The notes under the pieces are model-generated. The model did no database searches, was not told where the DNA came from, and was given only the letters and a program-made list of their open reading frames with translations. Position numbers and translations under genes: made by a program. This document shows positions 4,368-30,335 of a DNA stretch of 64,000 bases, in pieces; position 1 is the stretch's first letter, and every line of letters begins with the position of its first letter. The DNA is from Diphasiastrum complanatum (lineage: Eukaryota; Streptophyta; Lycopodiopsida; Lycopodiales; Lycopodiaceae): assembly GCA_029204225.1 (NCBI GenBank), contig CM055101.1, positions 43,894,180 through 43,958,179 of the forward strand. The letters are read 5' to 3'.

Positions 4368-4901
4368 TCAGAGATGGCGGCTTAGCAACCCCACAAAGAC
4401 GGAATATAGATCTTTGTTGTTTGGACCAAAAATGTCATCTGCTATTTTCAAAGTTTCCTGAAGAGACAAGCAACCCATACAAGTGGGGAAATTTAGACCA
4501 TGATTAATAATCTAAATTTTTTTGCTTGCATCCATGTAAGCAATAGCGTGATGTGAAGGAATATCTTCTCAATACTACCTCTCGGCTTCGCCGGTGAGAA
4601 TTCAACTCCTTGATGTTGGCAAGAAATTCCTTAAATTGTTCGTATGACAAACGGTTCCTGAGGATCCAATTGACAAGAAAATTGATTTCTTAGTGAGCAA
4701 CGGTTTCCAGTAGATAGATGAGTGAATATAAAAGCCTAGCTGTCAATTTGAAATCCATCTCTAATGTTAGGAAGAGCTCTTGAACCTGGCTTTGCGGAAA
4801 AATTCTTTGCCATCCACTTTGTTACCATGGACTGCAAGGTGACACAAGGTGTTCAAATTAGAAGCAGCTCATCCCTCATTGATAAAACAGAAACAGATTT
4901 T

Positions 4902-4932
<31 letters not shown>

Positions 4933-7900
4933 CGGTGCATGTTTCAAAGGTTATATCAACGCAGTGTACTTATCAAACAACAATATCACTAAAAAATATG
5001 AGAACATGAGAAACTAGCAAACCTGGCAAAGCACCAGCGGAAGGTGGGGAATTGGGAGCAGTGGATGTCTCGCTTGCAGGAAGTGACAAATGGATAGGTG
5101 CCCTAATCTCACTCATGGTTCTGCGGTTTGGTGAACCAGATCCAGAAAGCGGCCCAGGTGATCCTGCTGCAGATTTCGCTGCTGGAGATCCTATGGTGGG
5201 TGATATTGGAGGAATTTGAGTCCGTGAATTGGTGTACCTGTGGTAGATACCATGCCTTAAAGCTGCACACGATCAAAGAGGGCCATATCTATTTAGTGGG
5301 TATGTAAGAAGCAGATATTGGACCTATCCTAATAACATTGCGATAGCCCATCGACAGTAGTATCTAAATCAAAGAGTACTCTCATATTTTTGGAGTCCCT
5401 CTTTCCTACCACGCTCAAAAAAAATGAGAAAAGTGGATACCATCTGTCTCCACATGACAATCTGTTTCTGAACCATCTATCGTGTACGATTTAAATGAAG
5501 ATGCCCCACCATCTGTATTGCATGGAAGGAAACTTACCACGTGAAAAAAAATGTAGCAGAAGGATTGAGGCAATGTTTGACTTGCTGGTTTGGCAATATC
5601 AACAAGTTTATTGCGACCTCAAGTCTATTAAGAATTGCCTCACCATTAGCAGCTTAACTAAAAGAGTGTGCACACATTTAAAGAATGATTCTCAAGATGT
5701 CTCACCTGAAGCTGCTGATGACTTCTTGAAGGACCTCGTGTGGAGAAAGCTCAGCTTATCTCCACCGTCCACTTGCTGCATTGTCACAATAGTTGAAATC
5801 AAGCAGTTTAATGTTTTTCTTCCTACTTTGTGCTCAAATTATCAGTATCAGCTGCAGTTAACTCGATAGATATGAACTAAGTGGAGAATTGATCTTACTT
5901 TTTTTAAGATAGTAAAATCAAGAAAATCGAGGCGTTAGTCAGAAAACAAACAAAACACTGTACCTAGAACATTCAGAATCTGCATGGAAAAAATGATTAT
6001 GTAATATGAATACATGATCTAGACGCCATAAATGTTTGTGGAAATATTTCAATGCTTACCGAATTCTCGTCATCGTCTTGCAGCGACTGCATAAGAGATC
6101 TCTTAAATGCATCCAACTGTATGAGAAAGATATTCCATCAGAAAACGAACAAGGACTCTCTTGTCATTTATGTAATTTCTCATTGGATATGCAAGTTTGA
6201 ACTTTCCATATGTGAAAGTAAAAGTCTCAAAAGAATAACCCATGTTTCTATACAAAGCCCGCACATTTTTCTTTTCATCAACATCACTCAATAATGAAAA
6301 GGTAAAAGCCACCATATTGCAACAGAAGCTGAATTTTTTCAAATGATCAATATGCTAAATTTGTGAAAGACAATTTTACAATACTTTGCCAGAAAAGAAG
6401 TTGTGCATGGCATATCCAATCTTCTACAAGATCCTAGTAAAACAATTCTCTAAAATGATTTTTATTTGAACAATGAATACTTCTTCAACTTTGTTCATTA
6501 GTTATTTATTTTTCCTCTTTCACTAGAACAACAAGTTTCGTATACTTCACGAACTAGCATATCAAAGAATGCTTTGTCGAAGCTGCAATAAACTCAATTA
6601 AAGCTGTCATACTGAACCCCTTCCAAAATTCTCACTAGATTTTACTCGTGCAAAAAGCAGCTCTTTTGTAGATTCAAGGGCTAAATACCCCCACCACGAC
6701 CTAGTCATCCCCAGTGGATATACGTAAGTCAATATTTAGTCTAGCTAGTTGAAAAATTATACAAAAGAGATAAATTAAAAACATTACTTGAGTACTTCAA
6801 AGCATATTCCTCTAGCAATCATCTACTGTTTTTATAAAATATCTTGTTTGTAGTCTATCACAACCTTGAAGCGAGTTATACAACAATGAGATGGTAATCA
6901 ATTGTAGGAGGCAAGTATATTTTCAATCTTTTCAAATATCAAACAAGATTAGTTGTTGAGTTATCTTGGCCAGTTAGAAAGGTAACATACATTTTTCCCT
7001 TAAGAGCATCTCTGCGTCCTCAAATGGAATATAGATGTTTCAATGCTATTCCAAGAATTGTCCTTTTAAAAATATATTTTCAGCCCAACACAACTACTCA
7101 AATAAAAATGTTCTAGAAAGTTTGCGCATGTGAAGGACCTATGATTCTCTTGAAGTACTAGCTTCTTAGTTTAAATATAACCGTAAATACTTTCGGAGTC
7201 TACGATACACCACACTTAATTTTCTCAAAAATTGAGTATACTACAAAGGTTTTCATAATGCTCCGATCTAGAGTATTCCGACCATCTTCATATGAAAAAT
7301 GTACACTTCAATGTTAAGTACATAGCAAAATTGATCACCACATTTAAGTAACGTATTCTCTTGTTTGTACTATCATATAATCCCTACACATAAAAATTTC
7401 AAAATCTTACGATGACCTGATCTATCAAATTTTCCATCCCATTTGTGATCTTTATGCTAATATGGAAGATTCCAATATTTATCTAAATTTCAAAAAGGCC
7501 CTAGATGCACTCAAGTTTTGAGCTAGTACTGTACATTCTCAAATTTTCAAATATCCATAAAATTTTTATCCCTCCTATTAATACAATATGTCTACTTATA
7601 ATGGAAAACGCAAAGAGAACGTAGAAAATCATACAAGATTTCTCCCAATTTTTCAATTTTCTCGATATCTCAATATCTATCTTAGATTTGATTATTGACA
7701 TAAAAATGATGGAGGCACTCCATCGTCAACATCTACATGGCACATACCGGGTAAAGGTCCCAAGTTATTGTGTGAAATATTAGTCTAAAAAATAGTTAGG
7801 CTCTTCATATTAAAGGGAGGTTTTTGAACTGGCAAGTTGTTGTGATGCTTGATTGTCACCATAAATGCATGGAATTTCTTCGGCCTTGATCACATGAAGC

Positions 7901-10900
7901 TCCTCCAAAAGTCTCTTGAGCCATAGGATCTCGTTGGTGGTTGATGTCAATGCCTTATACTCGAATTCAGTTGAGGATAGAGAGAGGGTATTTTGCCTCT
8001 TTGAAAGCAAGTTATAACTCCTCCACATAAGAATGTAGAAAAAGCACTTGTGGATTTTCTATCCACCTTATCACCCGCAAAATTCGAGTCCAAGTATGCT
8101 CTCAAACACAAGTTAGTCCCTTGATAGATGATGCCAAAATTTCTTGTGGTCGAGATGAATCTTAACACTTTTTTTGGCACTTTTCCAATGACATACTAAA
8201 GGACTTTGCATGTATTGACTCAATTTGCTTACACTAAAGTTTAGATCAGGTCTAGTGACTGCCAAATAGATCAAGGAGCCAATAAGTCTTATATAGAGTG
8301 TGATGTCCTCAAAGGATGCTTCATCACCATCAATAGAAACTTTTACAACTTGCTCCATAGGAGTTTCATGCCCTTACAATATTTCATTACAAAATTTTCT
8401 AAGGTGGAAGTAGCATACTTTGATTGACAAATGAAAGTGAAATCATTGCTTCTAGGGACCTCTATGCCAAGTATGAACTTTAGAAGTCCTAGATCTACCA
8501 TCTTGAATTCACTAGACAATGCTATCTTTATATCTCTTATGCCATCATCAACATATAAAACCAAAATAATGATCTTGTCATCATTACATTTGACATACAA
8601 TGAAGGCTCATAAGAGCTTATTGCAAAACCAATAGAATTGGGATAGATATGCAACCTAGAGTACCAAGCTCTAGGTGTTTGTTTGAGTCCATAAAGACTC
8701 TTCTTCAAGAGGCACACTTTGTCTTCATCTCCTTCCTTGATGAAGCCCTCGAGTTTCCACATGTAGATCTCTTCTTCCAAGAATCCATTTAAGAAAGCAT
8801 TAGTCAGATCAAGTTGGAAAAGCTCCCATTCAAAAGAAGTAGCTACAAGACAAATAACCAATCTTATGGTTACAAGCTTAGCAACATGAGCAAAAGTTTC
8901 ATCATAATCTATACCTTTAGTTTGCAATAATCCTTTTGCTACAAGCTTTGCTTTGTACTTATTAATGGATCCATCTTTATTGTACTTCAATCTAAAATTC
9001 CACTTACAAAAAAGTGGCTTCTTCCCATGTGGAAGATTTACAAGCTCCTAAGTCTGATTTTCCATTAGTGCATCAAACTCAACTTGCATAGCATCTTTCC
9101 AAGATTGTGACTTTATATCATCTTCAAAACAAGATGGTTTTTTAAGCATAGTAGTCAAGAAAGTGTAGGAAGTAATAGGATGATAATCTTCCCTTTGCTT
9201 GCCCTTCTCAATATAGGTGAGCCTTGATGGCCCGACCTTGTGCCTTGTAGATATTCTTGGCACTCTTGGATCTTGAAATAGATTCTCAAGGTCTTCAACT
9301 TCTTGAAGCTCCTCCTCGGTTTTTGCAATATTTTTGACAACATGAGAGTTATATGAAAACTCCTACACTTTGGCATTATGAGATTCATCAAAGAGAACAT
9401 CTCTACATACTTGATTTGGTTTTTTGCCATGCAAAGCTTCAAAGGGTGTGACTCCACCAATGGCACTATTAGGAAGCCTATTACACAAAAAAATTGGCAC
9501 AAGTAATGGCTTCTCCCCAAAATGAAATAGGAAGAGAGACATCTAATCTTAATGCTTTAGCACATTCACATAATGATCTATTTTTTCTCTCGGCCATCCC
9601 ATTTTGTTGGGGGGTGTAAGTACATGTGAACTCTCTCTTAATGCCATTAGCCTCACAAAGATCTCTCATGCTATTGGAGATGTATTCTCCTCCATTATCA
9701 CATCTTAACACTTTAATGCTAGCATTAAGTTGCTTTTCCACAAGAGCTTTGAACTTTACAAAGGAATCATACACTAAGCTTTTCTTAGACAAAATATAGA
9801 TCCATGTGTATCTAGTACAATCATCTATGAAGGTTACATACATAGAAGCTCCACCATTAGATACATGTGAGAATGAGTGTACATCCGAGTGTATGAAGTC
9901 AAGCACAATCACCAGATCCACAATCAAAGAAGAAGATCTTTTGCAGGTATTGCAAGCGCAATAACCATGATATCAATGATTGCCGAATTCTCCAAGCAAA
10001 AAACGCAGCCAAACAACCTGATCAACAAGCAAACACAGTCTCATCATCTCCCCAGGTCGAAGTGGACAAAGGCACATTCATGGTCAAAGATCAAAGCGCA
10101 TTTTTGGATGATTCATGGTTTCTGGATTCTGGAGCAACTCAACATATGACCAATCAATGTGAGATCTTCAACTCCTACATGCCTTACAGCATGAAGAAAT
10201 TTGTTCATCTTGGTGACAATAGTACTCACACTATTGAAGGTGAAGGTACTGTAAAATTGCAATTCTAGCATGATCAATTCAAGCTACTATCAAAGGTCTG
10301 ATATGTTCCTAAACTCTCTACGAATCTGTTATCAGTAAGTAGAATTACATATTTAGGTCATAAGGTAGAATTTGAATCTGATCAATGCAAGGTTATTGAT
10401 AGAAAATAATAAGATCCTTGCACTCGGCAAGAGGCAGGGTTACTTATATAGATTGGCACATTGCTATTCTGAGTCTAGTCAAGCCTTGAAAACCTCTGTT
10501 CTAGTCAATAAAGCATTACTATGGCATCATCGCTTAGGACACTTGAATTATGCATATGTTTCGAACATGTCCAGACAATCCATGGTTTCGTGTCATTCCA
10601 TCCAAAATAGCACTCGGCCACCTATTGCACAAGAAATTGGCACACAACAAAGCTTGATCCCAAAATGGTTTGTCAAGATTAGCACTTAACCTCATAGCTT
10701 TAGCACTTTCACATAAAGTCCTATTCTTCCTTTCAGCCACTCCATTTTGTTGTGGGGTCCTTGATGTTGTATACTCCCTCTTGATCCCATGCTCATCACA
10801 GAAGGCCTTGAACTTGTTAGATATGTACTCACCACCATTGTCACATCTCAAGCACTTGATCTTTGTGGAGAATTGGTTCTCTCTTGCATTCTTGAACTTG

Positions 10901-13900
10901 ACAAAGACATCATACACTTCATCCTTGCTCTTTAGTAGATAGATCCAACAAATCTACTAAAATCATCAATGAATGTTACATACATCTTAGCTCCACTATT
11001 GCTAATTGTAGTAAATCCATGAATATCCGAATGTACAAGTTGAAAAGGCTCTGTAGATCTAGAAATAGATCTAGTATAAGGTAGTCTATGTGACTTAGAC
11101 AAAGCACAAGACTCACAAACATGCTTGTCATTACTTAAGGAACTTGGAAGACCAATCACAACCTTCTTCCTTGCCATTACCTCCAATGACTTGAAGTTGA
11201 GGTATCCCATCCTTTTGTGCCAAACCTCTTGAATAGAAATTTGCTCCCTTGCAACACATCCAACTTGGTTAGCAATAACACAAGCATAAAGTTTGAACAA
11301 CTTCCCTCGCCTTTTGCCTTTTCCAATCAAGACATCCTTCCTTTTGATCAAACAAGCATCTCCATCAAACTCCACCTTGAGGCCCTTACTTAGCATTTGA
11401 CTCACACTAAGCAAATTCTTGGTAATAGATGGAATAAACAAGACATCCCCCAAATGAACATTCCTATTTGTAGAGAGAGAAATATGAATTGTGCCAATCC
11501 CTTTGATTGCACACTCACCATCATTGGCCGTGTAGATCACCCTCTTGTCATCTCCATATGCCAACAAAGAAGTGAAGTACTCTTTGTGAAAGGTCATGTG
11601 TGAATTTGCTCCACTATCAATCCACCAAGGATCTAGATCTCCATCATTAGCAAAATGTGATGAAACTAGTTGAATCTTTCACAGATTTGATGTGATTCAT
11701 CATAGTTCATGAGATATGATTTTTTGATTAAGTGCTTGAAATGCACACTTTTGTGTGCATTTTGAACCAGCTCTAGTGTTAAGAAGAATGAGCACTCCCC
11801 ATGGTGACTTACTTGGTCTAATGTGTCCCATCCTAAGATATTTTTTAATTTGCCTGCCCACTTCTCTCTCTTCCTTTTGACTAAATTGGTAAGGTTGTTC
11901 AGAAATGGGGTAGCTATTAGGCATCAACTCTATCTTATGGTCTACATACCATGCGGGGACCATAAGGTAGTTGCTTAGGGAAAATGTCACTAAATTCTCG
12001 TTTTAAATCTTGCATTAATTGTTGCAAGAATATTCAATGTGACAATTAGAAAACACGTTCACATCAGACTTATGAACACTATCACAATGGAAAAGAGATT
12101 TCAAAACAAAATGAAACATTTCATAATTGGAATCATTTAATTTTTCCATTAATTTTGTAGAGGAAACCATCGACGATGGGAGTACATCAGTCTTTCCAAA
12201 AATAGAGACATTTTTACCATAACTATATTTAAATACCAACGAGTGATTTTTAAAATCTATTTCCAAAGAATTTGATCTACTAAAAAACTACTCATAGCCT
12301 AGAATAACATAAGTGCAATCGAGATTCATGATGAGAAAGTTGAGTTGCTCAACATAGTCTTGCATCTTTAGCTCCAAATCTGGGACTTTGACATTCCAAA
12401 TCTCTGTGTTTGACTCTGAGGCTAAACAGACCACATATATGTGATCACTGGCCATGGTGGGCACTTGAAGCTTCTACATGAGCCGAGAATTTATAAAATT
12501 GAGTAGTACATTTTCCTAAAATTTTGCCTCCAACTCAAAACAATTAATCAAACTTGAAAGATAACATACTGAAATTACAAACACAAGCACAAGTTTCTAA
12601 TAGGTCAACTCCATCATCATGAGAATCTATTATTTCTTCTTCTTCTTGGAACACTATTTCGCACAATGCCCAGACTTATTACACAAAAAAAAAAAAATTT
12701 CTCTACTTGTCAGCTTCCACGCCTTGTCTTTTATTATCGGCTTCTTGTTCTTTTTCTTCTGGTGAGCTATGGCTAAACTATTTTTTTTTTCTTATTCTTA
12801 GGCTTATCAATTTATGGTTTCGGGGCCATTTGGTCCATGCTCTTACGTGAAGCAACCACTGTGCTATCATAGGCTTTTGCCACCCAAATAGCGTCTTCCA
12901 AAGTTTGGACATTACGCTTGCACTCATTTTGATAATTGGCTGGTATTCTGTACACGAAATGCCATTGAGTCAATGTTTGATAAAAAAAGACACCTTGGCA
13001 AAAAAAAAATGATAAACTCTTGGACTTGGGTGTAAGCTCCTGATTGCCCATCCAACAATCTATAAATCAAATATCCATTTTTAAGTCATCTAAGGCAATG
13101 AAGGGGTTTCAAAATTCCTCTACGAATCCAGTCCAGGTTGCCGGTTTCAAAGATAGTTCCCTCCACCAAGAGAAAGCCTTACCTTCTAGGAACAATAATA
13201 TGGATGATTTTCATTTCTCATCTCTTACATTGCGCAAGGTAAAATAGCTTCACCAATGATTTATCCAATCTTTAATAACTTAGGAGCATTTAACTTTTTT
13301 TTTCACTGGTATACATGTCCGAATAGCCCAAGTTGTTGTAGTTAATGGATTGTAACTGATTAAAAAGATATTGCATTTGATTATTGTGTTGTTTCTTGTT
13401 TTGATGAAGTTTCAAAATGGCTTTACTTAAGGTGTGAAGCAATTGGTTCTGGTAGATCAGTCCTCCCACATCGGGAGACATCGGTTGCATTTCGGGAGAG
13501 GATGATAATTCTTCTCCAAGAATTGAAGCTTCCTCATTTGCCATTATGCCTAGGAAATTTTTTTTTCCCCTAATTAGCCAATTTGTGTGAGAAAACTACA
13601 ATGTTCGTCAAAGCAATAATCATAAAAAGTTTCATTTTTATGAAGGCACATGCTAGAAAATGCTCTTACAAAACTGGAATTTTGTTGTCAAATGTGTAAA
13701 CATCAACAAATTCACCATTACCAAATTTATGTCCATTAACTATCTTAATAATTTTAAAAACTAGTAAGCTTGATCAAAATCACATAAGAAGTTAAGACTG
13801 TGACAATTAAAAAAACAACCCTTGGACTAAGAACAACACACACCCCCCCCCCCCCAAATACCCAAAACACAACCAACAAAATAGATTTAAAAATTGTGAA

Positions 13901-16900
13901 ACTATATATTTTTTAAACCAAAATGTCAACGTTTAACCAAAGGGCAACAACCCCTTTTAAGAGCTGAAATTTTGCCTTACATTCAAAAAGCCAAAAAAAC
14001 AAAGGCAAATTGCAAAAGCCTTTGGCAAAGAGTGAATTCTCGCCCCTCCAATGTCACTTTTCAAGACTCTGATTTAAAACTAGTTGCATAATGTGAAAGA
14101 TTCAACTAGTTTCATCACATTTTGCAATATTTCCATATTTGGCATATTGAGGCCAAAACTTGTTTTATACTTAGAGGTTGACTTTTCAAAGTTCATTAGT
14201 CTAAATTTCATTTGAATAAACACTTTTTGAAAGTGTGGGAAAGATAGAATGCGAGTTTGAGTAGATTCAATTTGAATAAGTTGGGTACATTGAATCTAGA
14301 CCCAAAATTGGTAGGGTTAGCATTTTGGTGGGAAAGCCAAGTGGCCAAATAGGGTTTGGACCTGTTATAAAAGGATGTAACTCGTGGAGAGAGTCATCTT
14401 CTCTCTTCTCTATCTCATTTCATGCTTATACATGGTTCTCTTGGGTTCTACTATCCATTGGTGCACTATCTTGGTGATTGCTTGCAATTCTATGTGTAGA
14501 ATGATCTATATTTGCTATTTTTGGATCCACACGTGTGAAATACAGTAGCTTGATGGTTTTGTACGGACAGCAATAGTACATAATCATTTCATTCAAGTTT
14601 GATCAAGTTCTATTAGTGTTTGCATCTCAAATTGTGTGTAGATGCTAATTTTTCTACATTGGTGACATTGATAGTGTATTTCTCTTTCTAACCAAAGATC
14701 ATTCAAGTAGATTGGATCTTAAGGATCTGAAATCTTTCACATGGTATCAGAGCTTGTGTTTCAGGTTATGAAGGAGGAAATCAGATCTATCAATGATTTG
14801 GTGAAGATATCAAGTCTAGAGCATGCTAGAGAGGATTCTACACCAAAATCGGATTTTTTGCTTTTGTAGATTGGATCTTTTGTAGATCAAAACACTAAAT
14901 AGGTCAATATACTTGTTCAATTCCGTTTTTTGAATTCACATGCTGGATTTGGCCGATTTTTGGATCATTGGTTCAGCCTAAGTGGTGGCTTCTAGATTGC
15001 ATATCAAATTTTCAGCATTTGCATATAGATTTGGAATAGTCAAATTTTTGTGATTTTGTCAAAACCCTAATTTTGATTGGATCTCTAGATAGTGAGGTTG
15101 CTGGACTTCATTTGAGTGTGTTTCAATCTTAAGAAGTGGCAAAAGTCATTAGATTGAGGATAGATCATAGATTGATCAAGATTCCATGATTCTATGTGTT
15201 GATTTGCTTGGATAAGTGCTAGAAGAGAATTTGTGAGATAGTTTCAAATCTTGGTGATTTCTTTTGAAAGCATTTGTTGTTGTTCAAAGGAGTGCTTTGT
15301 GCATTGAAACAGGTTGAAAGAGAAGATCAGGTCATTGCTACATGGCAACCTCAATTGGAGTCATGTTGGAAGCCAATGATAGGCTTACCTCAAGTAGCTA
15401 TTCATTATGGAAAGTGAGGATGGAGTCACTTCTTGAGATGAATGATGTTTTGGATATTGTTGTAGGTTTGGAGGAGAGACCAGCAACACAACAAGATCAA
15501 TTGAGGTATGACAAGAGGGCCAAAAAGGCTCTACACATGATAAAGATGAATGTTACCAATGAACTTCTCAAGGAAGTTGGTACTTGCACATCATCTTTGG
15601 AAGCTTGGAATTCATTGAAGAAGCTTTATGAATCCAAGTCTACTTCTAGAGTGTTGACTCTAAGAAGGCAAATCTTTTCTTGTTTGCAAAAGAATGAAGA
15701 AAGTCCAAGTACTTTTGTTTTGAGAATGAAAACATTGAATGATGAGTTAGCTTGCATAGATGAAAGCATTAAGGAAGGAGAGCTTATTCAAGTGATTCTT
15801 AATGGCTTGTTGGATGCTCATGCTAACATTGTTCAAAGTATTTCTATTCAAAAGACTTTGCCAAGTTTGATGGATCTTCAAGAGATCTTGATCAATGAGG
15901 AATATAGGCTTCAAGCAAGAGGTGGATCTACATCGACACTTCAAGAGGATGCTATGTTCACAAAGGGCAAATTCAAGGGCAAAACCAAAAGCAAGTGGTC
16001 TAAAGGGCAAGATCAAGTGGATGCTTCTTCAAGTGGCAAAAAGAAGGATAGACCTAAGCTCAAGTGCTTCTATTGTGGCATCAAAGGACACTTTGCAAGT
16101 GAGTGCTACAAGAAGAAGAGAGATCAAGGAGACAAGCAAGGTAATCTTACTCTTGATGAGGATGGTTTGGATGTGCAAAATGCAAATGATGATGCTTTTG
16201 TGATGTCTTCATGTATGCTTGCTAATAATCCTTGGTGGATTGATAGTGGAGCAAGTTCACACATGACCTCACAAAGAGTACTTCACTTCTTTGTTGGCAT
16301 ATGGAGATGACAAGAGGGTGATCGACACAACCAATGATGGTGAGTGTGCAATCAAATGGATTGGCAAAATTCTTATTTCTCTCTCTACAAATAGGAATGT
16401 TCATTTGGGGGATGTCTTGTTTATTCCATCTATTACCAAGAATTTGCTTAGTGTGAGTCAAATGCTAAGTAAGGGCCTCAAGGTGGAGTTTGATGGAGAT
16501 GCTTGTTTGATCAAAAGGAAGGATGTCTTGATTGGAAAAGGTAAAAGGCAAGGGAAGTTGTTCAAACTTGATGCTTGTGTTATTTTTAACCAAGTTGGAT
16601 GTGTTGCAAGGGAGCAAATTTCTATTCAAGAGGTTTGGCACAAAAGGATGGGACACCTCAACTTCAAGTCATTGGAGGTAATGGCAAGGAAGAAGGTTGT
16701 GATTGGTCTTCCAAGTTCCTTAAGTAATGTCAAGCATGTTTGTGAGTCTTGTGCTTTGTCTAAGTCACATAGACTTATACTAGATCTATTTCTAGACCTA
16801 CAAAGCCTTTTCAACTTGTACATTCGGATATTCTTATATTTACTACAATTAGCAATAGTGGAGCTAAGATGTATGTAACATTCGGTGGATAGAATTCATG

Positions 16901-19900
16901 TAGGAAATTTGACTTTGAAGTGTGGTATATCAAAGGAACCACCAATCATGTGGCTGATGCACTTAGTCAAATTGGTGAAGTGAATGAACTTTCTTTCACT
17001 ACGACCAGCACAGATCTTTATCTCTCCTCAAGGGGACTTTGTGATAAAGACCCGCATTTTGGACCAACCTTGAAGAGAGTACTAGCAGACTTGTCAAGCG
17101 AGACTGATTTACAGGATGATTAGTCTAATAATAGAAAGGATAAAAAGAGTGTTGATGATATTTCTATCTGTAATGGAATTTTTTTCAAGAAAGGAAATAT
17201 ATGAGTTCTCGATGTGGATGCAATTAAAAAGAAAATTATTTATAAATGTCATGACTCACACCTTGTGCGAGGCATTCAGGCTACATCATATTTTAGATTT
17301 GGTATGAAGGGACTTTTATTGGCCAAAATTTAAACCTCTTGTAGAATTTTATGTGGTCAAGTGTGACCAAATATGCCAGTTTGTTAGCTCTTCAATCCGT
17401 ATTGGCTATGGCTCCAACTAGATCGAGTTATGGCTTCTCCCAACTAACCCTCACTAAGGCTTTCCCAGCTAGCTTAGATATGGATACTAAGAAGACAGTT
17501 CAAGCATAGGATGAGTAATCTGAGGGTAAGATCCGCTCTTCTCTCGTTTCTCTACTTAGGAACTGACTCAAATGATGGTTTGACCTATAACTCAAATGAC
17601 GGCTTAACCTAAAACTCAATTTCACAAAGGCTTAACCTACATGTGAAAGGCCCAATGATAAAATAAAACTAATTAACTTGGTTCGCAGAAATTATAATAC
17701 ACAGTGTAACAATTATAAATCGTCACGGAGGAGAACTCTCAATGAAAGAAGATAAAGCTCTATTATGCAAATGAGGTTCTTCCGACAAAATGGACTCTTC
17801 CACTCCTATATATTCTTGGAGTGGTGGTCACTTACAAAAGGGCACTATGAGACAAATAGACCACATAGGCTTAATTTGGTACCATGGGACAAACCCCCAA
17901 TGGACCATAAACAACTGAACTAACTTAAGTTGAACTTATTCAGACTAGTTTAAGTTCCAATCTTCTGGATTTAGGCTTAGAACAACTTTAAGTCGTCACA
18001 ACATGGTGCAAAGGCTAAACTTGACTGATCCAGTTCTAGGCTTAAGTCTGTATTTTTTTCAAGATGGCTCGAATATTCCTTAGAATATCAGCCTACACAG
18101 TTGAATAAGGTCGAACACCTTAAGGCTAGTGGATTGTTGCATCCATTGAGTATCTCTGATAAGAAATGGAACAATATTTCAATGATTTTCATGGTTGGGT
18201 TACCGTGGACAAATAAAAAACATGATGCAATTTGGGTAGTGGTCGACCATCTTACCAAATTGGCTATGTCTATTTTGGTAAAGACCATCGTGAAGGCTTG
18301 TAGTTTGGCTCAAATATTTGTGGATCTAATATTTGCTTTTCTAGATCAAGATCTTGTGACTAGTTTTGCAATTATAGATAGGTGTATCAATCAATCAATC
18401 ACTCTTGGAGCAATATGTAGGTTCATTTATGCTCATTTGTACTATACTTTCAACATGTTGATCATATTCTGCTACTCAATACTGCTAATTTGCTATTTCA
18501 AAATGCCAATATTTTTCTATTCTACAAAACTTTATATGATTGTCCACTAGGTTTTTGGGACACAATTTCATAGGGGATGGTTCAAGATTTGTATTCATCT
18601 TTCTCAAGTAAGATTTTTGAATAACACATTGACAAAAGAGTCACCTGTTCGGTCGAGATCTGATAGAGTGCTTCGGTCTTTTTAGGAACATGTTCGTGTG
18701 ATCAGTTGTGTTCGTAATATTAATTGCACTCCAAATCCATTCTTCATAGTCCATAGTTGTCACAAATCTATTGACTTACATGACTTCTTGAATAGTCTAC
18801 ATAAATACTCTAGTTTTGAACAATCTATAGAAATACTCTACAATTCCACTCTAGTCAATATTGAACAATCTACAGAACTGTAACACATCTTGAACATGTA
18901 CTCTATGCAAGCCATTTTGTTGGCCAATTATTGGCGTTTTGTTCGATGATCAATCCGATTCTAGAGGCCCTAAATGGTTGGTAAGCTATTTTTCAAGAAT
19001 CAGCTTTTATGTAGAATCAATATGGGTTTTTAAAAGAATCCTAGCCACAGGGGGCGATGGTTCTAGTATCAACCCTACATGATATAATCTAAAAAGGAAA
19101 TTTTTCTTACATGCTTGTGGAGAGGAATAACTAATAACTTGTCAATTAGGACAACAACTGGTGGGTGGGCCAACAAATAAGTAGTGTGCAATGAGAATTC
19201 TAGTAATGGTTTTTGTAGAAGTATTTTATTTTGAGTTGTTTGAGTGCGAAGTAAGGTGTGATTTTTGTGCACATTAATAAATGTTAGTCAAAATCTTCAA
19301 ACTTTTCTTGACCTTTATAATCTTTTTAACGTAAATATGTATAATTGCTATAATTATAAATTACCAAAATAATATATGTTATAGCCTAATTTATAGGACC
19401 CAATAGTTTTTGATAGTGTAATAATTGCCAAATCAAGATTTGCCAAGATTATTTAGTAAGATATTATTGAGAACTACTAAGTAGAAGGATTTAAAATCCA
19501 AATGAGCAGCTCTTGCAGGTATTTCAAATATGTGAGAACTGCCCAACATTGATCATAACCTCAACCTTGAACAATCTCAAGTCGACATAGTTACACTAGA
19601 TTTTGAGTAGAAAAGCTAAGCATCTTGTGACATGCAAATTAACATGAGATATTGAACAAGACTAAGTCTTGCATAAACCATGAACATAGTCATCTCAAGG
19701 TCATGCCTTCATCTTGAAAAGAATCTTGCCAATTTGCACGGACCTTAACTTCAAGAAGTGACTTAAATCATTAGGGTTTTTTTTTTTTTAAATGGTCTCT
19801 TTAACTAATTGTTATTTGTGTTAATGCTTCTTGGTTTCCAAGGGAAGTCTCTAACTTGGGACCAATGAAACTTTGGATGCCAAGCTAACCAATCCCCTTT

Positions 19901-21641
19901 AGTTTATTTGTGTTAATGAAAAGAGGTGTAATATTAAAAATCTAATAGTTATATGGAATGGTCCATATAACATGGCACATCCAATGGCTAAAATTAGATC
20001 CAAAATTTAACTCACCCAAGTCCCACTAACCCCAATGTAACTCTACTTCACTAGCCCCTTATCAATGACATGATATTATGCCATGCAATGTCATGCAATG
20101 TGGGATTCCATCATTGAGGGTGTTAGATGCACATCCTATTAGAAGTTTTAAAGTCTCATAATGACATGAACATTCTGTTTCTAGAGGTGGCTACAAGATG
20201 CGCTACGCGACACACAAAAACGAGCACAGCCCGGCTATCAAGTAATATCAGCACTCTTTTAGAAGACACAAAAACAGCATATCTTTCATCTCCTCCAATT
20301 AAATCCCTCCTTTGCAACACCGCACCATGCTATGGGAAGGTGCTCATTGCCTACCTCAAATCTCTCTCTCTCTTCCTTTAGAAAGCAATAGATCAAGCTT
20401 TTATGGACTTGATTGAGAGAGCATGCCTCCATCACAAATTGGATATCCTTAATTTATCTGCATTACTTTCCGTTCCCGACCGGTAATCCCTCCCCCCCCC
20501 CCCCCCCGCCCCAATCTATCGCTTTTGGCCTCCTTTTGTGCATCGGGGATTTAGAGCATTTTTTTTCCCTGCATGTTCAAACGTAGGGGGCGCAGGATGT
20601 TGTAGAGCCATCCTGATCGGGGTGAATACTTTGATTTATACCAGTCGATACTTCTAGATCAGAGTGGGTGTTCACATATTTTGCACTGTGCAGTAAAGGA
20701 GAAGGCTCTGCATGCAGAGATAAGGAACCTGGATATTGATCCCTCTCTTTTTTTATTCTACCAAGAATCGGAATTGGAGCCTGAAGGAATGGTTGTATCA
20801 TACCAGCAATTTGCTTCTAATTTAAGTGTGAATAAACTTGAAACTTGAAGGTACAGCCAGGGCTAGCACTGCTCAGCATAATGTTTCTGCTTTCTCTCGC
20901 CCACAAGGCAAACTCACAAAGAACAATTTGACTCTATGATGCAGGACAAGTCTTTAAGTTTTCAGGTCAAAGTGCCGAATGCATTGAGAGATGGGAAGGC
21001 CAAACAGCAAGCAGTACCTTTGTAACTTCACGGTTCAGTCTCTTGATTGTTGCTAAAAGAACACTTTTTTCATTGGTAAGCTTGACCTGCAAAGACAAAC
21101 TCCATTAATAAGCCATGGCAATCATCCGTTACAATGCTTAATATTCCCAAATTACAAATTTGCAATACACACAAACGGCTAGACGAAATAGCAGAATTTC
21201 TATCAACTCATATGTTTCTTTCCCCTATATTTTGGTGCAACATTAGATCCCTTAGTCTATAAATGCGGATTGAGATCCTCATATTTTACCTCTATTTTGC
21301 TGATTATACATACAACTATCAGCTAATCAGGAATATTTGTATCTTTTGAAATGGGCTGAATGCATTTGAACCTGCTCATCCAAAGCATGATTAAGCCGAG
21401 CCGTAGTTTCCTCGAGGCTACGTTCTATTTCAAACAGCCGATCCCTTTGCTCCGAGATTGTTTTATCCTTCTCAGCAACTTTCTGCACCATTTTCTTCTC
21501 ATCATTCTCTATCTTTGTCACTCGTGCAGCCATGGCCATGGAGGTGATCCGTCTAGCCACATCCAGCAGCTCAAAAGGATCCGATGGCAGAGCTGACAGA
21601 ATATCCTGAGTGAGATCAACGTTATCCCCTCCATTTCCCAT
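4368..21641 (-). CDS. At4g15545/NAIP-family coiled-coil protein, eight exons
   Basis: Coding exons, 5' to 3' on the minus strand, are 21641-21372, 21086-21018, 6116-6060, 5775-5706, 5262-5023, 4831-4786, 4657-4579 and 4457-4368. All seven introns are GT-AG, phases match throughout, and the sum is 921 nt (306 aa plus stop). Exon 1 carries LPSDPFELLDVARRITSMA, the family's N-terminal signature, then a coiled coil (about residues 25-115) ending in KLTNEKSVLLATIKRLNREV. Exon 3 reads SLMQSLQDDDE. Exon 5 is a Pro/Ser-rich spacer. Exons 6-8 give the conserved C-terminus: DGKEFFRKAR, NRLSYEQFKEFLANIKELN, then ADDIFGPNNKDLY and GLLSRHL. Length fits the family (about 300-330 aa). From memory, Arabidopsis members were named NAI2-interacting proteins involved in ER-body formation; biochemical activity is not established. 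An upstream in-frame ATG exists 21 nt before MGNGG, so the start could be 21662. Confidence 0.9.
4898..4932 (+). repeat. T14-G21 homopolymer tract inside intron 5
   Basis: Fourteen T are followed by twenty-one G on the plus strand, within the 191-bp fifth intron (4832-5022) of the coiled-coil gene. On the transcript this reads C21 then A14, about 90 nt after the donor. The G run could form a quadruplex on the non-coding strand. The run length may also be imprecise in the assembly. Confidence 0.85.
7835..8180 (-). pseudogene. copia RNase H remnant, truncated at its end
   Basis: Two overlapping frames give LRAYLDSNFAGDKVDRKSTS and then WLKRLLEELHV and IYGDNQAS, the RNase H blocks of copia. The sequence leaves the family pattern after GDNQAS, so the terminal helix, polypurine tract and LTR are missing or rearranged. 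Confidence 0.8.
8113..8990 (-). pseudogene. copia reverse transcriptase remnant
   Basis: The frame 8990-8343 contains KYKAKLVAKG, QLDLTNAFLNGFLEEEIYM, SLYGLKQTPRAWY and the catalytic LYVDDG. A break near 8350 passes to the 8358-8113 frame, which carries the RT C-terminal block with LIGSLIYLAVTRPDL and SQYMQSP. A shortened ILVLYVDDGIRDIK region suggests a small deletion just after the active-site motif. No full-length protein is possible. Confidence 0.85.
9905..10600 (+). mobile_element. copia gag-protease-pre-integrase fragment, plus strand
   Basis: A CCHC zinc knuckle (CRYCKRNNHDINDC, 9942-9983) is followed by the protease active-site block FLDSGATQHM near 10118 and by the pre-integrase block LWHHRLGHLNY near 10520. 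A stop (TAG, 10267-10269) and frame changes break it. Both ends abut minus-strand copia pieces, so this is an inverted block in a mosaic. The segment 10310-10500 recurs near 42950-43170. Confidence 0.85.
10601..11683 (-). mobile_element. copia protease-integrase fragment with a scrap of its LTR
   Basis: Minus-strand reading gives WWIDSGANSHMT (protease, about 11630-11600), the pre-integrase block VWHKRMGYLNFKSLE, integrase Asp in HSDIHG, second Asp in RCDNGGEY and Glu in QQNGVAERKNR, ending near CNRWPS at 10600. It closely resembles the element at 14092-16883. The extreme right (11650-11683) is identical over 34 bases to the first 34 bases of that element's LTR. The integrase is split by a frame change near 10930. 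Confidence 0.88.
11690..13560 (-). mobile_element. Ty3-gypsy gag-protease-RT remnant, minus strand
   Basis: On the minus strand a gag start (MANEEASILG, ATG at 13544) is followed by a gag core with an AFSWW-type block near 13170, NECKRNVQTLEDAI near 12930, a zinc-knuckle scrap (CNKSGHCAK, near 12680), a protease tail with ILGYE (about 12300) and the RT entry VDHKIELMPNSYPI at about 11940 with IRPSKSPWG. Numerous stops and frameshifts are present and RT stops soon after the entry motif. A second copy of the family lies at 37056-38301. Confidence 0.85.
13561..14091. other. probable gypsy leader/LTR remnant, no gene
   Basis: AT-rich sequence between the gypsy gag start and the copia LTR, with a C14 run near 13843-13856. 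On gypsy orientation this would be leader or 5' LTR, but no PBS or terminal repeat could be matched. Confidence 0.35.
14092..14741 (+). repeat. 5' LTR of copia element, 650 bp
   Basis: It starts TGTGAAAGAT and ends ATCTTTCACA, a perfect 10-bp terminal inverted repeat. The PBS follows with no gap. Promoter-like features (TTATAAAAGG near 14366) lie in the middle, as expected for U3-R. No matching 3' LTR is present, so age cannot be judged. Confidence 0.92.
14742..14753 (+). other. primer binding site, initiator Met-tRNA
   Basis: TGGTATCAGAGC is the standard plant Ty1-copia primer-binding site, complementary to initiator methionine tRNA. It immediately follows the CA that closes the LTR. Confidence 0.93.
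15342..16310 (+). CDS. copia gag (capsid-nucleocapsid) running into protease
   Basis: An uninterrupted 322-codon frame begins with MATSIGVMLEANDRLTSSSY and carries the UBN2-type gag core (LWKVRMESLL; RVLTLRRQIF; FVLRMKTLNDELA). A basic segment then leads to a CCHC zinc knuckle (CFYCGIKGHFASEC, from about residue 242) and the protease motif WWIDSGASSHMT near residue 300. The sequence then shifts frame: compared with the sister copy at 10601-11683, two bases are missing just after the protease motif (about 16266), so the last residues are out of frame. Gag would form the virus-like particle and bind element RNA. Confidence 0.9.
   Translation: MATSIGVMLEANDRLTSSSYSLWKVRMESLLEMNDVLDIVVGLEERPATQQDQLRYDKRAKKALHMIKMNVTNELLKEVGTCTSSLEAWNSLKKLYESKSTSRVLTLRRQIFSCLQKNEESPSTFVLRMKTLNDELACIDESIKEGELIQVILNGLLDAHANIVQSISIQKTLPSLMDLQEILINEEYRLQARGGSTSTLQEDAMFTKGKFKGKTKSKWSKGQDQVDASSSGKKKDRPKLKCFYCGIKGHFASECYKKKRDQGDKQGNLTLDEDGLDVQNANDDAFVMSSCMLANNPWWIDSGASSHMTSQRVLHFFVGIWR
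16291..16883 (+). pseudogene. copia protease tail, pre-integrase and integrase start
   Basis: After the two-base loss, the frame resumes as LLAYGDDKRV, then NLLSVSQML and VWHKRMGHLNFKSLE, and ends in a zinc-binding CESCALSKSHR block. A further shift follows near 16775, and integrase stops before its second catalytic Asp. The break with gypsy DNA is near 16883. Confidence 0.87.
16884..18330 (+). mobile_element. Ty3-gypsy RNase H-integrase fragment, split by a solo LTR
   Basis: The block 16918-17110 reads VWYIKGTTNHVADALSQIG, the end of gypsy RNase H. It is followed by an H-H-C-C integrase zinc-binding region in shifting frames up to ICQ at 17380. After the inserted LTR the pattern resumes with VEHLKASGLLHPL (18112), then MVGLPWTN and WVVVDHLTKLA, the start of the integrase core. 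Similarity is lost near 18320. Several stops make it non-functional. Confidence 0.85.
17382..18097. repeat. solo LTR (716 bp) with 5-bp target-site duplication
   Basis: The insert begins TGTTAGCTC and ends CAGCCTACA and is flanked on both sides by CAGTT (17377-17381 and 18098-18102). Removing the insert and one CAGTT restores continuity of the gypsy integrase reading. A TATA-like CCTATATATTC lies near 17808. No PBS or polypurine tract adjoins it, so it is a solo LTR left by LTR-LTR recombination. The plus-strand TATA suggests plus orientation. Confidence 0.85.
18330..18470 (+). repeat. LTR fragment related to the copia LTR at 49.1-49.9 kb
   Basis: Sequence from CTTTTCTAGATCAAG through the four tandem ATCA units to GTAGGTTCAT matches the reverse complement of about 49750-49850 with few changes. 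It has no partner features here. Confidence 0.75.
18471..20126. other. intron DNA with no assignable gene
   Basis: AT-rich sequence within intron 2. A weak gypsy-integrase-like reading begins near 18550 (VFGTQFHRG) but is too degraded to call. No other conserved frame is seen. Confidence 0.4.
20127..21017. other. exon-proximal part of intron 2, no gene
   Basis: It contains a C run at about 20491-20507 and moderately GC-richer DNA (20180-20360). No coding frame with family resemblance was found on either strand. Confidence 0.4.
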
Positions 21642-23239: not shown

Positions 23240-24457
23240 TGTAGCACAGGCATCCCAAAGGGAGCCGGGAACCACGACTTAGCTTCCCAGCCTTCAACTC
23301 TTGCCATCCAAACCCACTTGACATACAAGCAGCCAACTCGCCAACAACGATCAGACTTAACCAACTTGAAGTTCCGAAAACCAACATTGAGATCCAACCT
23401 GGCGCCATGCCAGATCGGGGGTCCCGATGTGGGTGACTTCCCTCCAAGCAAGCCGCCCAACATACATCAAACTTAACCAACTCGAAGCTTCGTTACAAAC
23501 GAGTAACATCCATTCCAAGCAAGCGGTCTGACTTACATCAGACTTAACCAACTGAAAGCTTCGTCACGAGCGCTGGAAGCCAACCTGGCGCCACGCCAGA
23601 CTGGACAGCCATGAACAGGTAACATCCACCCAAGCAAGCCATCCAACTCAACCGACAGGTTAGAGCCCGTTCCCCAAGAGCTTAACCCATTCACGTTCAT
23701 GCAAGGAACACTCAGAACCACAAGCCGCGACAGATATGGAAACAACCAGTTCCTGAACCCAATGGTCCTGACAGCATACCGCTGGCGCCACGGACCGAAT
23801 GGTCCCGACGGCATACTGCTAGCGTTCCGGGATACGACCCTCAACTATGTGCCAAGTTAAAAATTTTGAAAGCGACTTTACAACTGGCACTTTTACCGAA
23901 CACTGAAACCCAGAAGGTAATCAGAGTCAGTTTGAGAAAAATCCCACTTTATTGATAAATCTGAGAAGGTTACATTTCAAGTGTGTGACCGACCCTAGTC
24001 TCCGGGGCGCTAGCATGCCAAGGCGAGAGCCAGGACAACATTCCAGCAAGGGAGGCTGAGACTTGGTTGGAGCTCGCCCTGAGTCGCAACCCGCACTCCC
24101 CTATAGTATTGGTGTGATTCGGCACCCCCCCTCATACCAAGCACTCTACCCAAGCTGGTAAAGCACGTTTTTCTCTCTCTAGGATTTTCTCTTTCTAGAA
24201 AGTCATTTTCTTTCTCTAGATTTTATTGATCCCCAGGCTTCCTTTAATCATGCCTAGATCGTGTGAGGTGATTGCACATCGATCTGAGCTCTCTGGACTT
24301 CGCTAGAACCAATCAAAGATTTTCAGCCATAGGAACTTGGCGCCGGCTGGATTCTGGTCACAGTGGCGTCGGGAGCAGCAGGGGCGCTGCTGGCGCCGGG
24401 GACATAGCTGGCGCCGATGGCGCCGGAAGTAAAGCTTGTAAAGGTAGCTTTACAACA
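23240..24457 (-). repeat. 3' LTR of the non-autonomous element
   Basis: Read on the minus strand it runs from TGTTGTAAAGC (24457) to GCTACA (23240). The promoter-proximal part (24340-24430) is rich in GGCGCC palindromes. ORFs inside it duplicate those of the other LTR and show no known domains. Confidence 0.92.
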
Positions 24458-27043
24458 TCCACCCCACCTTTATAAAATCTGATGTCCTCATCAGATGTCA
24501 GATTAAAGTAAAGGTGTCTCCCAATTAAAATAACTATACATTTAAGCTACTTGGCACAGTACTCAATTTACTGGCTACTTTTTATTAACATTGAAGCTGG
24601 CACACCACAAGTCGGAGGCTCAGCTCTTTGTACTAAAAAATTACATAACTTGAAACATATCTTTGTCTGGGAAAAGCGTAGATTTGATATCGCTTTCGTA
24701 AAACCGAAAAACCTTATTAACTGCTGACAGAGGCCTTTCTTTGAAATGTTCGCCCCTGTCGCTTCTGACTTTTGACTTTGGAACTCCTTTGAGCTCCTGA
24801 TTTGTCCTTGATGCACTTTGTGTTGAGCTCCCTGAGCTCCAGATTTGTTCAGTTCCGCACAGGTATCAGGGCTCCCTGAGCCAAAGGATTTATCGTTTGA
24901 TTGCCCACTTTATGGTCCACTTCGTGCCTTGTTGCTTCTGCACCTTGATTTCTCTCCTTGTCCCAGTCTAATCTTGATACTTTTCCATCTTGGCTCTTTA
25001 AGGTAGGCAAAGATTGAGTACTCCGCAATGCACCTCTCACTTAGCTTGAAGTAGCTCTTTGAATCAGCCCAAATGTAACCATTGACCTCGTGGAAAGCCA
25101 AAGGGTCGCACCAGTTTGATCCGCATCCGAACTAACTCTTCGCGTTTGTTTGAAGCACCATGTTCGTCGCGCAAAACTTGACTTTCACAATTCCATCACT
25201 GGTTAGTTGCCTCACAGTCAAAACAAGAAGTGTACATCGAGCTTGGCTTCAAGTAGCTCTCTTTGAATCAGAAACATGCACCCAGAGTTTGCACTAATCC
25301 GATCTCAACGCGAACTGTCCCTTAGCGTCTGTTCGAAATACCAAGTCTCTCATGCAAGACTCAACTTTCACAGTTCCTTCATTGATCAGCTGCCTTACAC
25401 GTAACACAAGCCAACGTACTCATATGTTTCCTCATCATTGCTGGTCCAGAGAAAGCCTATAACAAACTTTCCTTTCCACAACAAAAACTTGTCAACTTAT
25501 TAGGTCCAAAGTTCGCCAGTATCCTCGTGTGAGTATGGCTAGGTCACCTTGAATTTGCCCCCATTTTGATCAACTTTCATTCAAAATTTGCCCCAAGAGA
25601 GAGGTGTGTGTGATAGTTTCCCTCCACTTAATAAATCAGCTGATCGGACTTAGAGTAGAGTTCTTCGGACAAAAAGCCTTTCCAACACTTTGCTTCCCAT
25701 CTACTAGGATTATGGCTCGATCCAACTTGTTGCCAATCTCTAAAGAGGATCCTAGTCTTTTCCCCTTTGAGGAAAAACTCAACTGATACTGGATATCACC
25801 CATGCTCAGTGAGTTTCAGTTCCGAAGGTGGTCGTCCCAAAATGAAGACCAATTGCTATAGAAGATCTCCCCTGAAATTGCCCTTTCCAACTTTTGATTG
25901 CCTGCTTGCGTCTGGTGGGCGTTGTCGCAAATGAAACTAACCCAAGAAACAGGCTAGCCATCCATCCTTTGCAAACATTGAGTTTTCGTTGTCGTTCACG
26001 TGCGAGTACTTGAACTGCAAATCCGCCGCACAGATTTTGGATATCGCCCATGCTCAGTGAGTTTCAGTTCCGAAGGTGGCCGTCCCAAAATGAAGACCAA
26101 CTGCTCCATAGAAGATCTCCCCTGAAATTGCCCTTTCCAACTTTTGACTTCCTGCTTGCGTCTGGTGGGCGTTGTCGCAAATGAAACTAACCCAAGAAAC
26201 AAGCTAGCCATCCATCCTTTGCAAACATTGAGTCATTTCGTTGTCGTTCGCGTGTGAGTACTTGAACTGCAAATCCGCCCCACAGATTCTGTAGTCCTCT
26301 TTGTTTGATGGTATCAGCCTTCAAAAGAAAAGGTTCCTTCTCGAGCCATCAGCTCCTTGTATAACAAGCAATCATGCAAACCAGGCAAAGCACGAGTACT
26401 AAGACTCACCACGAATACGTACAAGTAAGACACTCAGGCAGGTTTACTAACAAGTAACAAAGACAAGGTCCCCCTTTGAGATGGTCCTGCCAACAGACCT
26501 TTGCTTGGCCGCGCTCATATAAATCGATCACGGAATCAGCCCACATAGGACACTCCTCCAACTATCCGTGCTTTCACCATTAAGCAGCACATTGCCTCAG
26601 TCACGCCCCACCACTTTTTGGTCGATAGCCCTTATAGCTAAACGATCGGCAGCTATCCCGCACCGGCAGCTAACCACCCGTGCTTTACACCCGAATTCGA
26701 ACAGCATCTCTGTATCAATGGTTAACCCGTACAGTTCGAATATGTCGCCCCGCACCCCACAAGGTACAGACCGTGCTTTCACCTCCCTAGGCAGCACTTT
26801 GCCTCATTCGTCCTACGTGCAAACAGCGCCAGGCCCGAACCGCGAGAACTGACCGTGCTTACATCTCAAGGGCAGCACCTTGACTCATCAAGTCCCCCGT
26901 TCTGCCGACCACCCCGACCGTGGACGCACCCATGCTTACACTGTGGGCAACACCTTGCACAACAGTTGTCTTGATGAACCCCAAACCGTGGCCATTTTTG
27001 TGAGATCCGCATAGCTGACCGGCCAGTCGGCTCTGATACCACA
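24458..27043 (-). other. non-coding interior of the LTR element with internal duplications
   Basis: There is no long conserved frame. A tandem duplication of about 247 bp occupies 25791-26037 and 26038-26289. A weaker duplication pairs about 25040-25215 with 25240-25400 (both with GAAGTAGCTCT and AACTTTCACA motifs). Between 26566 and 26960 a CCGTGCTT...GGCAGCAC...TTGCCTCA pattern recurs about five times at roughly 80-110 bp spacing. Confidence 0.75.
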
Positions 27044-28261: not shown

Positions 28262-28266
28262 CCAAC

Positions 28267-30157: not shown

Positions 30158-30335
30158 ATAGGAAGATCAAAAGTTACTAATCCTAGTTTTGTTCATGATT
30201 GGATCAAAAATTAAGCATCGAATAACTAAAAGTAAAATCATGAGGTTAATTGTACTAAGGACTCCTTAGTTTTCATCATCCAAATGCGAGTCTTGTGTGG
30301 AAGCTTGCCCATCACTCTCATTATCAGACACCTCA

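Follow-up and report, generated by a model that had tools for sequence, protein, structure and literature searches.

The window, a 64,000-nucleotide stretch of Diphasiastrum complanatum DNA (contig CM055101.1, positions 43,894,180 to 43,958,179), carries a minus-strand gene that runs from position 21641 to 4368. Its nine exons can be joined in phase across eight introns with GT-AG at every border, and the resulting 993 coding nucleotides hold 330 codons (330 aa) without a premature stop or a frameshift. A preliminary description of this locus had reported eight exons with matching phases and GT-AG borders and a product of 306 aa; the phases and borders stand, whereas the exon count and the product length do not. 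As exon 5 adds exactly 24 aa, the difference between 330 and 306, it was probably the exon missed earlier.

Exon structure and product of the gene

The first exon (21372..21641, 270 nt) encodes an N-terminal conserved block and the start of a coiled coil. It is an open frame that ends in the donor CAG|gttcaa, and its translation is 49-59% identical to its counterparts in three near-full-length paralogs. By eye, a second in-frame ATG is seen 21 nt 5′ of the exon 1 start. The coiled coil continues through exon 2 (21018..21086, 69 nt, phase 0/0), the boundaries of which are equal in the three paralogs, and ends in exon 3 (6060..6116, 57 nt, phase 0/0), the paralog version of which (LETFKR...) begins at the identical phase-0 acceptor. 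Exon 4 (5706..5775, 70 nt, GT-AG, phase 0/1) has weak matches in the paralogs. Exon 5 (5441..5512, 72 nt, phase 1/1) is in frame with GT-AG borders and, since it has no firm location in the paralogs, we infer its use. These two exons are poorly conserved. The SP-rich middle of the protein is encoded by exon 6 (5023..5262, 240 nt), with paralog matches of 43-48% amino acid identity. Exon 7 (4786..4831, 46 nt) is identical at 12/12 and 11/12 aligned residues in the two paralogs on C1, and no counterpart was found in the C8 paralog. The C-terminal domain is shared between exon 8 (4579..4657, 79 nt), with 17-22 of 26 residues identical to the paralogs, and exon 9 (4368..4457, 90 nt, stop TGA), with 18/28, 23/29 and 21/29 identical residues. 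The GTTCAA donors of introns 1 and 7 look atypical, in an unscored judgement.

The gene is probably a NAIP-like member of a small family, with an N-terminal coiled coil, an SP-rich middle and a conserved C-terminal domain. Its product probably resembles the Arabidopsis NAIP (At4g15545-type) sequence. A simple count of a/d periodicity, made without a coiled-coil predictor, favoured register 2 in 21-residue windows across residues 33-131, except for starts 78-84, and the heptad register continues across the exon 2/exon 3 junction. The middle part contains five SP motifs between residues 200 and 251 and no TP motif, and the C-terminus is well conserved among the paralogs. Pfam returned nothing significant for the gene product, and a PDB sequence search with the C-terminus, the part that in NAIPs is homologous to the harmonin homology domain, gave no significant match (best E = 0.15). 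The assignment is based on this probable resemblance and on the architecture described in PMC9314129, according to which the NAI2-interacting proteins NAIP1-3 likewise combine an N-terminal coiled coil, an SP-containing middle and a conserved C-terminal region; in either case the family is small, with three to four members. The likeness is thus one of architecture. NAIP1 appears as At4g15545 in the accession list of PMC9252503, the main text of which prints another locus number.

Paralogs in the same genome

A search of the 1.745-Gb assembly, in which 121 of 132 candidates were scored, identified three diverged near-full-length paralogs, giving a family of four near-full-length members, in addition to fragments and retrocopies. 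The exon 2/exon 3 junction was found at the same position, in phase 0 and with GT-AG borders in all three paralogs; 16-17 of 23 residues of exon 2 and 11-13 of 18 residues of exon 3 are identical to theirs. The common site and phase of intron 2 support the gene model. Intron 2 of the paralogs, however, measures 645, 862 and 2,434 bp as compared to 14,901 bp here, and only the copy in the window, one of the four members, has an intron 2 of this size. Two of the three paralogs carry a long stretch elsewhere, namely an 8.6-kb intron 1 with Copia pieces in one case and, in the other, about 11 kb that separate exon 3 from exon 6; the C8 paralog is compact. In Pfam, two reading frames taken from the long stretch in the C1 paralog at 47.6 Mb had no significant match. 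Since all four members share the intron-2 site, while long stretches are differently placed in three of them, the family provides natural controls for the effect of large TE-filled introns on splicing and expression.

Composition of intron 2

Intron 2 (6117..21017, minus strand) has GT...AG borders and is filled with retroelement pieces. Its length of 14,901 bp confirms the reported 14.9-kb spacing between exons 2 and 3, and an unassembled gap within it was rejected, as the window is free of N bases. The remaining seven introns measure 121-285 bp each, which replaces the earlier count of six out of seven introns under 450 bp. The adjoining kinase gene has one 4.3-kb intron. Element-assigned blocks total about 10.1 of the 14.9 kb of intron 2 (our own sum over the parts), and the intron is thus made largely of identifiable TE sequence. 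At least eight pieces were recognized, where at least seven blocks had been noted before: Copia B, Copia C, two inverted partial Copia D copies, three Gypsy pieces and a solo LTR.

Part A of the intron (6117..7829) is without an assigned retroelement; no retroelement match was found for it among 40 scored of 14,076 candidates, which is a weak negative. The matches of the adjacent Copia B fragment (7830..9903, minus strand) end in a sharp border at 7830. This fragment encodes integrase and reverse transcriptase (rve, E = 6.3e-13; RVT_2, E = 4.7e-54), is truncated at both ends and lacks about 155 bp at 9412/9413. Among the 40 scored of 14,076 candidates, its 69 non-self rows showed 75-94% identity, or 80-88% in rows of at least 1 kb. 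An RNase H part of Copia B was named by eye only. The Copia C fragment (9904..10589, plus strand) carries Pol_BBD and gag_pre-integrs, and shows a local inversion near 10412, marked by two oppositely oriented matches to 42913-43159. Copia D1 (10590..11683, minus strand) consists of a 1,064-bp internal fragment and the first 34 nt of the LTR, which are joined at a 4-bp microhomology. Its Pfam matches were Pol_BBD, gag_pre-integrs and rve, below cut-off, and 39 of 40 non-self rows matched the block at 96-98% (40 scored of 25,517 candidates). The second Copia D copy, D2 (14092..16883, plus strand), starts with a 5′ LTR (14092-14741) and proceeds from gag to GAG-pre-integrase (Retrotran_gag_2, Pol_BBD, gag_pre-integrs) before it is truncated. 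Its primer-binding site is presumably 14742-14753, judged by the motif. The 12 nt directly upstream of the D2 LTR match the 3′ inner end of Copia D. Compared with each other, the Copia D fragments at 10971-11632 and 16228-16883 are inverted and 96% alike.

The three Gypsy pieces represent two inverted halves of one family, named Gypsy E by their match to the genomic copy L043, since the window's own pieces had no significant Pfam match. By this match, the first half (11779..13793, minus strand) extends from gag to the start of the reverse transcriptase; L043 6525-8271 matches 11779-13444, and the L043 frames in this region contain Retrotrans_gag, RVP_2 and RVT_1. The best long match of this half in the genome is 76%. 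Part 1 of the second half (16891..17381, plus strand; 79% to L043, 74% to L041) covers the end of the RNase H region and the zinc-binding part of the integrase, the matching L043 frame carrying RT_RNaseH and Integrase_H2C2. Part 2 (18098..18324, plus strand; 81.5% to L043, 82.6% to L041) corresponds to the integrase core, for which the L043 frame gave rve with E = 4.5e-6, below its cut-off. Between the two parts lies the solo LTR (17382..18097), defined by empty-site comparison with L043 as a 716-bp element with TG...CA ends and a 5-bp target duplication, CAGTT. In the remainder of the intron (part F/G, 18325..21017), the shared pieces recognized are short, at 18318-18455 and 19825-19892.

The seemingly scrambled intron is partly readable as the outcome of insertion, truncation, solo-LTR formation and inversion. 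Relative to L041 and L043, two of the five copies fetched, which are collinear, the Gypsy E halves are inverted. Genomic matches of at least 1 kb range from 67-76% for Gypsy E, through the values given above for Copia B, to 96-98% for Copia D1, which suggests that the pieces differ in age; with long matches spanning 67% to 98%, the retroelements probably accumulated in intron 2 in a stepwise manner. Against L034-L036, the inverted-repeat part of Copia D2 shows 96.5-96.8% identity and the rest 94.6-98.0%. These values are suggestive at most of an inversion that ran through the two Copia D copies.

Constraint on the coding sequence

Comparisons with the paralogs covered 258 (C8), 257 (C1a) and 274 (C1b) of the 330 codons, with exons 4 and 5 excluded. 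Changes unique to the gene's own branch fell on 11 of 171 second positions, whereas at third positions the count was 16 of 49 (Fisher p = 8e-6), a distribution that shows constraint on this branch. Unique first-position changes numbered 22/159 in the gene, 21/158 in the C8 paralog, and 12/149 and 8/145 in the two C1 paralogs, which are each other's closest relatives and therefore have shorter branches. Because synonymous differences from the paralogs have reached saturation (pS 0.71-0.75), a dN/dS ratio was abandoned, and the constraint applies to the long term rather than to the period after the most recent insertions. The earlier impression of a functional gene is upheld as regards its intact structure, conserved C-terminus and third-position-biased change, the last of which shows long-term constraint. 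The description as a coiled-coil gene with a retroelement-packed intron was borne out by an intact family member with an intron 2 enlarged by retroelements.

Interpretation of the enlarged intron

Very probably, the locus is a normal nuclear gene, likely a functional one, with a TE-grown intron 2 that would be spliced as one ordinary intron. Intron 2 would have started from a size like the 0.6-2.4 kb seen in the paralogs and would have reached 14.9 kb as LTR retrotransposons inserted step by step and were then reshaped by truncation, solo-LTR formation, microhomology-mediated deletion and, probably, an inversion. Transcription would run through the intron, which would be removed as a single GT-AG unit. 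The gene anatomy, the conserved intron site, the excess length over the paralogs, the element types and their junctions are direct observations, while we infer in what order the events took place, that the gene is transcribed and spliced, and that its protein functions. Points against this reading are the higher number of unique first-position changes than in the C1 paralogs, the poor conservation of exons 4 and 5, and the atypical donors of introns 1 and 7. Retrotransposon-swollen introns are a well-known kind in plants and, for a plant genome of large size, this one appears unremarkable, making the case useful rather than surprising. In Chloranthus, which has long LTR-rich introns, and in magnoliids with their long introns (PMC8626473), as well as in the large TE-rich introns of grapevine (PMC3058033), LTR elements are likewise a main cause of growth, and across species intron length tracks genome size (PMC8626473). 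Here, in contrast, a single intron of a single paralog has grown in this way, and two other paralogs are enlarged elsewhere. In Chloranthus, long-intron genes tend to higher expression, which declines only beyond 40 kb (PMC8626473).

The earlier statement that the intron requires epigenetic control of the IBM2 type is not supported. It is conceivable, though rather doubtful, that readthrough of intronic heterochromatin in this gene depends on an IBM2/EDM2-type complex, which would be compatible with ordinary splicing of a TE-grown intron. Heterochromatic introns of transcribed rice genes are typically TE-rich, long and promoter-proximal (PMC7145194); the present intron resembles them in its length, its place near the 5′ end and its TE filling within a structurally intact gene. 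Genes with such introns are over-represented among the genes affected in OsIBM2 lines, yet rice has 4,227 gene models with heterochromatic introns (11% of 37,866), and 93 genes of this type are found among 454 that changed in each of the three lines, with the authors' caveat that the mutants were partial and the tissue limited (PMC7145194). The CpG observed/expected ratio of the intronic Copia D pieces is low (0.10-0.11), but so is that of a full-length copy elsewhere (0.12). The depletion is thus common to the element family, probably inherited and uninformative on this locus, and was rejected as a sign of local methylation.

A recent pseudogene or split locus, in which insertions in intron 2 block transcription or splicing and the frame is intact because too little time has passed, appears improbable. 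The youngest pieces, those of Copia D, are about 97-98% identical to other copies and recent enough for neutral survival of the frame; in simulations of neutral decay (4,000 runs per setting, 0.1 indels per substitution assumed), an intact frame was kept by 33% of copies at 1% change and by 11% of copies at 2%. Intron 2 also contains nine AATAAA motifs on the gene-sense strand, and likewise nine on the opposite strand, and the three further near-full-length family members could cover the function. Against this stand the uninterrupted coding sequence, the GT-AG borders of all eight introns, and the older Copia B and Gypsy E pieces, which suggest that the gene had tolerated a long intron for some time when the youngest elements inserted. 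Survival dropped to 0.15% at 6% substitutions per site, half of the Copia B divergence from its closest long copies, a setting that presumes Copia B to have been resident in the intron throughout and that may be too high, as shorter Copia B pieces match at up to 94%. A misassembled or single-haplotype interval is very unlikely: high-copy repeats and rearranged pieces can mislead assemblers, but the N-free interval lies within a 64-Mb contig and contains several old pieces and one clean solo-LTR junction with its target duplication.

On the reading of a functional gene with a transcribed intron 2, the inverted Copia D pair might form a hairpin in the pre-mRNA, from which small RNAs would silence the 96-98% identical copies genome-wide. 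We regard this as highly speculative and the least probable of the ideas raised here; if true, it would be an intronic counterpart of Mu killer of maize. A difference is that the arms here, of about 660 bp, lie within an intron at a distance of 4.6 kb. What the two have in common is transposon coding sequence duplicated in part and in inverted orientation, from which read-through transcription from a gene could give hairpin RNA (PMC3440606).

Gene model and paralogs

The NAIP-like coiled-coil gene of the window (C10:43894180-43958179), a putative match of At4g15545, was resolved into nine minus-strand exons, whose stop-free join of 993 nt (including the stop codon) encodes 330 aa. Exons 1 (21641-21372), 2 (21086-21018), 3 (6116-6060), 4 (5775-5706), 6 (5262-5023), 7 (4831-4786), 8 (4657-4579) and 9 (4457-4368) were placed by open-frame joining, and exon 5 (5512-5441) adds 24 aa in phase at both ends. 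GT-AG borders were found in all eight introns, which from the first to the eighth measure 285, 14,901, 284, 193, 178, 191, 128 and 121 bp, and no N bases were present within the 64-kb window. The preliminary description had proposed eight exons and 306 aa; its stop-free GT-AG joins held, as did the 14.9 kb between exons 2 and 3, while the exon number and product length had to be revised. The shorter product equals the 330-aa product minus exon 5 and, because this exon is in phase on both sides, an isoform that skips it is possible.

A protein query against the 1.745-Gb assembly (5,176 contigs; E ≤ 1, with 121 of the 132 candidates scored) returned 33 matches. Nine were the gene itself, and 16 represented three near-full-length paralogs, located on C8 (five), on C1 at 26.9 Mb (five) and on C1 at 47.6 Mb (six). 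Four more were exon-1-like and lay on C16, and C6, C21, C2260 and C12 carried one each. No near-identical second copy was found among the matches from these scored candidates, so that within this scope the genome did not yield the other complete copy that the preliminary description had named as a possible objection. The paralogs are old and share 58-62% amino acid identity with the window gene.

In each of the three, AAG closes exon 2 and is followed by a GT donor, and exon 3 opens directly after AG with LETFK, where the window gene has LDAFK. The window gene shares 16-17 of 23 exon 2 residues and 11-13 of 18 exon 3 residues with these paralogs, and the heptad register continues unchanged across the junction, as judged by a simple count of a/d periodicity. 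Intron 2 of the C8, C1 (26.9 Mb) and C1 (47.6 Mb) paralogs spans 862, 2,434 and 645 bp, respectively. Judged from sequence, the 14,901-bp intron would be an ordinary spliceosomal intron that was enlarged over time.

PMC9314129 describes NAIPs as having an N-terminal coiled coil, a middle part with SP/TP motifs and a conserved C-terminus, usually with three to four paralogs, and the architecture of the window gene agrees with this. If the gene is a NAIP, the NAIP literature would suggest a role in ER-derived vesicles.

Constraint on the coding sequence

Comparison with the three paralogs (258, 257 and 274 codons) gave a pN of 0.22-0.245 and a pS of 0.71-0.75. At sites on which the three paralogs agree, changes unique to the window gene fall at 22/159 first, 11/171 second and 16/49 third codon positions (second versus third, p = 8e-6, Fisher). 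At the level of sequence, these codon-position differences show long-term constraint. With 1% neutral change, 33% of simulated copies stayed intact, compared with 0.15% at 6%; the evidence for constraint in the recent past is weaker than for the long term.

Retroelements in intron 2

The preliminary description's count of at least seven retroelement blocks was borne out by the location of Copia B, C, D1 and D2, the Gypsy E pieces and a solo LTR. Copia B (7830-9903, minus strand), identified by genomic matches and sharply bordered at 7830, lacks about 155 bp at 9412/9413; among the genomic matches listed, those at least 1 kb long are 80-88% identical to it. Copia C (9904-10589, plus) was recognized by its Pol_BBD and gag_pre-integrs domains. 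Copia D1 (10590-11653, minus), delimited by genomic copies with identical sharp borders, is 96-98% identical to many copies (39 of 40 non-self rows scored). Its inverted counterpart D2 (14092-16883, plus) carries an LTR, the primer-binding site, gag and part of pol. Immediately before this LTR, at 14075-14091, about 12 nt correspond to the inner 3′ terminus of Copia D; the element end is otherwise missing.

The single complete Copia D LTR in the intron is antisense to the gene, and D1, in gene-sense orientation, retains only 34 nt of its LTR, joined through a TTGC microhomology. As regards the Copia D copies, such an arrangement would keep a sense terminator out of the transcript, but the LTRs are too few to argue for selection. 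In the pre-mRNA, the inverted Copia D arms might pair into a long hairpin.

The first half of Gypsy E (11779-13793, minus) matches genomic relatives at 64-82% identity, save one 57-bp piece at 96%. The second half (16891-17381 and 18098-18324, plus), delimited by genomic copies, is split by the solo LTR (17382-18097), which has TG...CA ends and a CAGTT target duplication. Pfam gave no significant match for the window's own Gypsy E pieces, because they are too decayed. Their assignment to Gypsy is based on a relative elsewhere (L043) with two LTRs 98.6% alike, the frames of which match Retrotrans_gag, RVP_2, RVT_1, RT_RNaseH and Integrase_H2C2; the integrase core scored under its cut-off. Among the five copies fetched, the halves are collinear in L041 and L043, about 1 kb apart, and L040, L042 and L044 match the first half only. 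On the simplest reading, a single Gypsy element was split and part of it inverted, with breakpoints near the Copia D copies; two separate insertions are possible. The elements assigned here lie within 7830-18324, between intron flanks of 6117-7829 and 18325-21017.

Outside the gene, a direct repeat of 1,224 bp (23240-28267; 98.3% identical, about 3.8 kb start-to-start) probably marks the two LTRs of a young element that sits some 1.6 kb upstream of the start codon. An inverted pair of about 435 bp (30330-31659; 94% alike) is related to 49069-49360, and inverted repeat pieces therefore also occur beyond the gene.

Long introns and further family copies

Intron 1 of the C1 (26.9 Mb) paralog measures 8.6 kb: in the merged stretch it runs from the end of exon 1 (~911) to the start of exon 2 (9519), and matches to Copia gag and pre-integrase fall inside it (L023 912-9518). 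By these matches, a long intron carries retroelement sequence in a second member of the family, at another site than in the window gene. In the C1 (47.6 Mb) paralog, exons 3 and 6 lie about 11 kb apart; exons 4 and 5 are not firmly placed, and Pfam searches of two frames from this stretch found no TE domains. The C8 paralog is the sole compact member. A neighbouring gene with a Pkinase match (56498-62375, plus), presumably an AGC-type kinase, has a 4,264-bp intron (57226-61489; acceptor placed by eye), making it a second long-intron gene in the window.

Heterochromatic introns occur in 11% of rice gene models, enriched toward the 5′ end (PMC7145194); long introns are common in Chloranthus and magnoliids, with LTRs as the major contributor in Chloranthus and an R2 of 0.89 between genome size and intron length (PMC8626473); and grapevine has 2,697 large introns with >80% repetitive content (PMC3058033). 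Given these cases, the paralogs and the neighbouring gene, the TE-swollen intron 2 is a sound observation of a kind already known.

On C16, several exon-1-like copies (L028, L029, L030) lack the other exons in the fetched stretch; L030 contains a tandem pair with stops. L027 1975-2414 (C6), L031, L032 and L033 carry intronless copies derived from the 3′ end of the C1 (47.6 Mb) paralog that are 85-95% alike. In L027 exons 6 to 9 are fused, as in a retrocopy of spliced RNA, and it is therefore probable that the paralog was transcribed in the germ line, with introns 6 to 8 spliced out.
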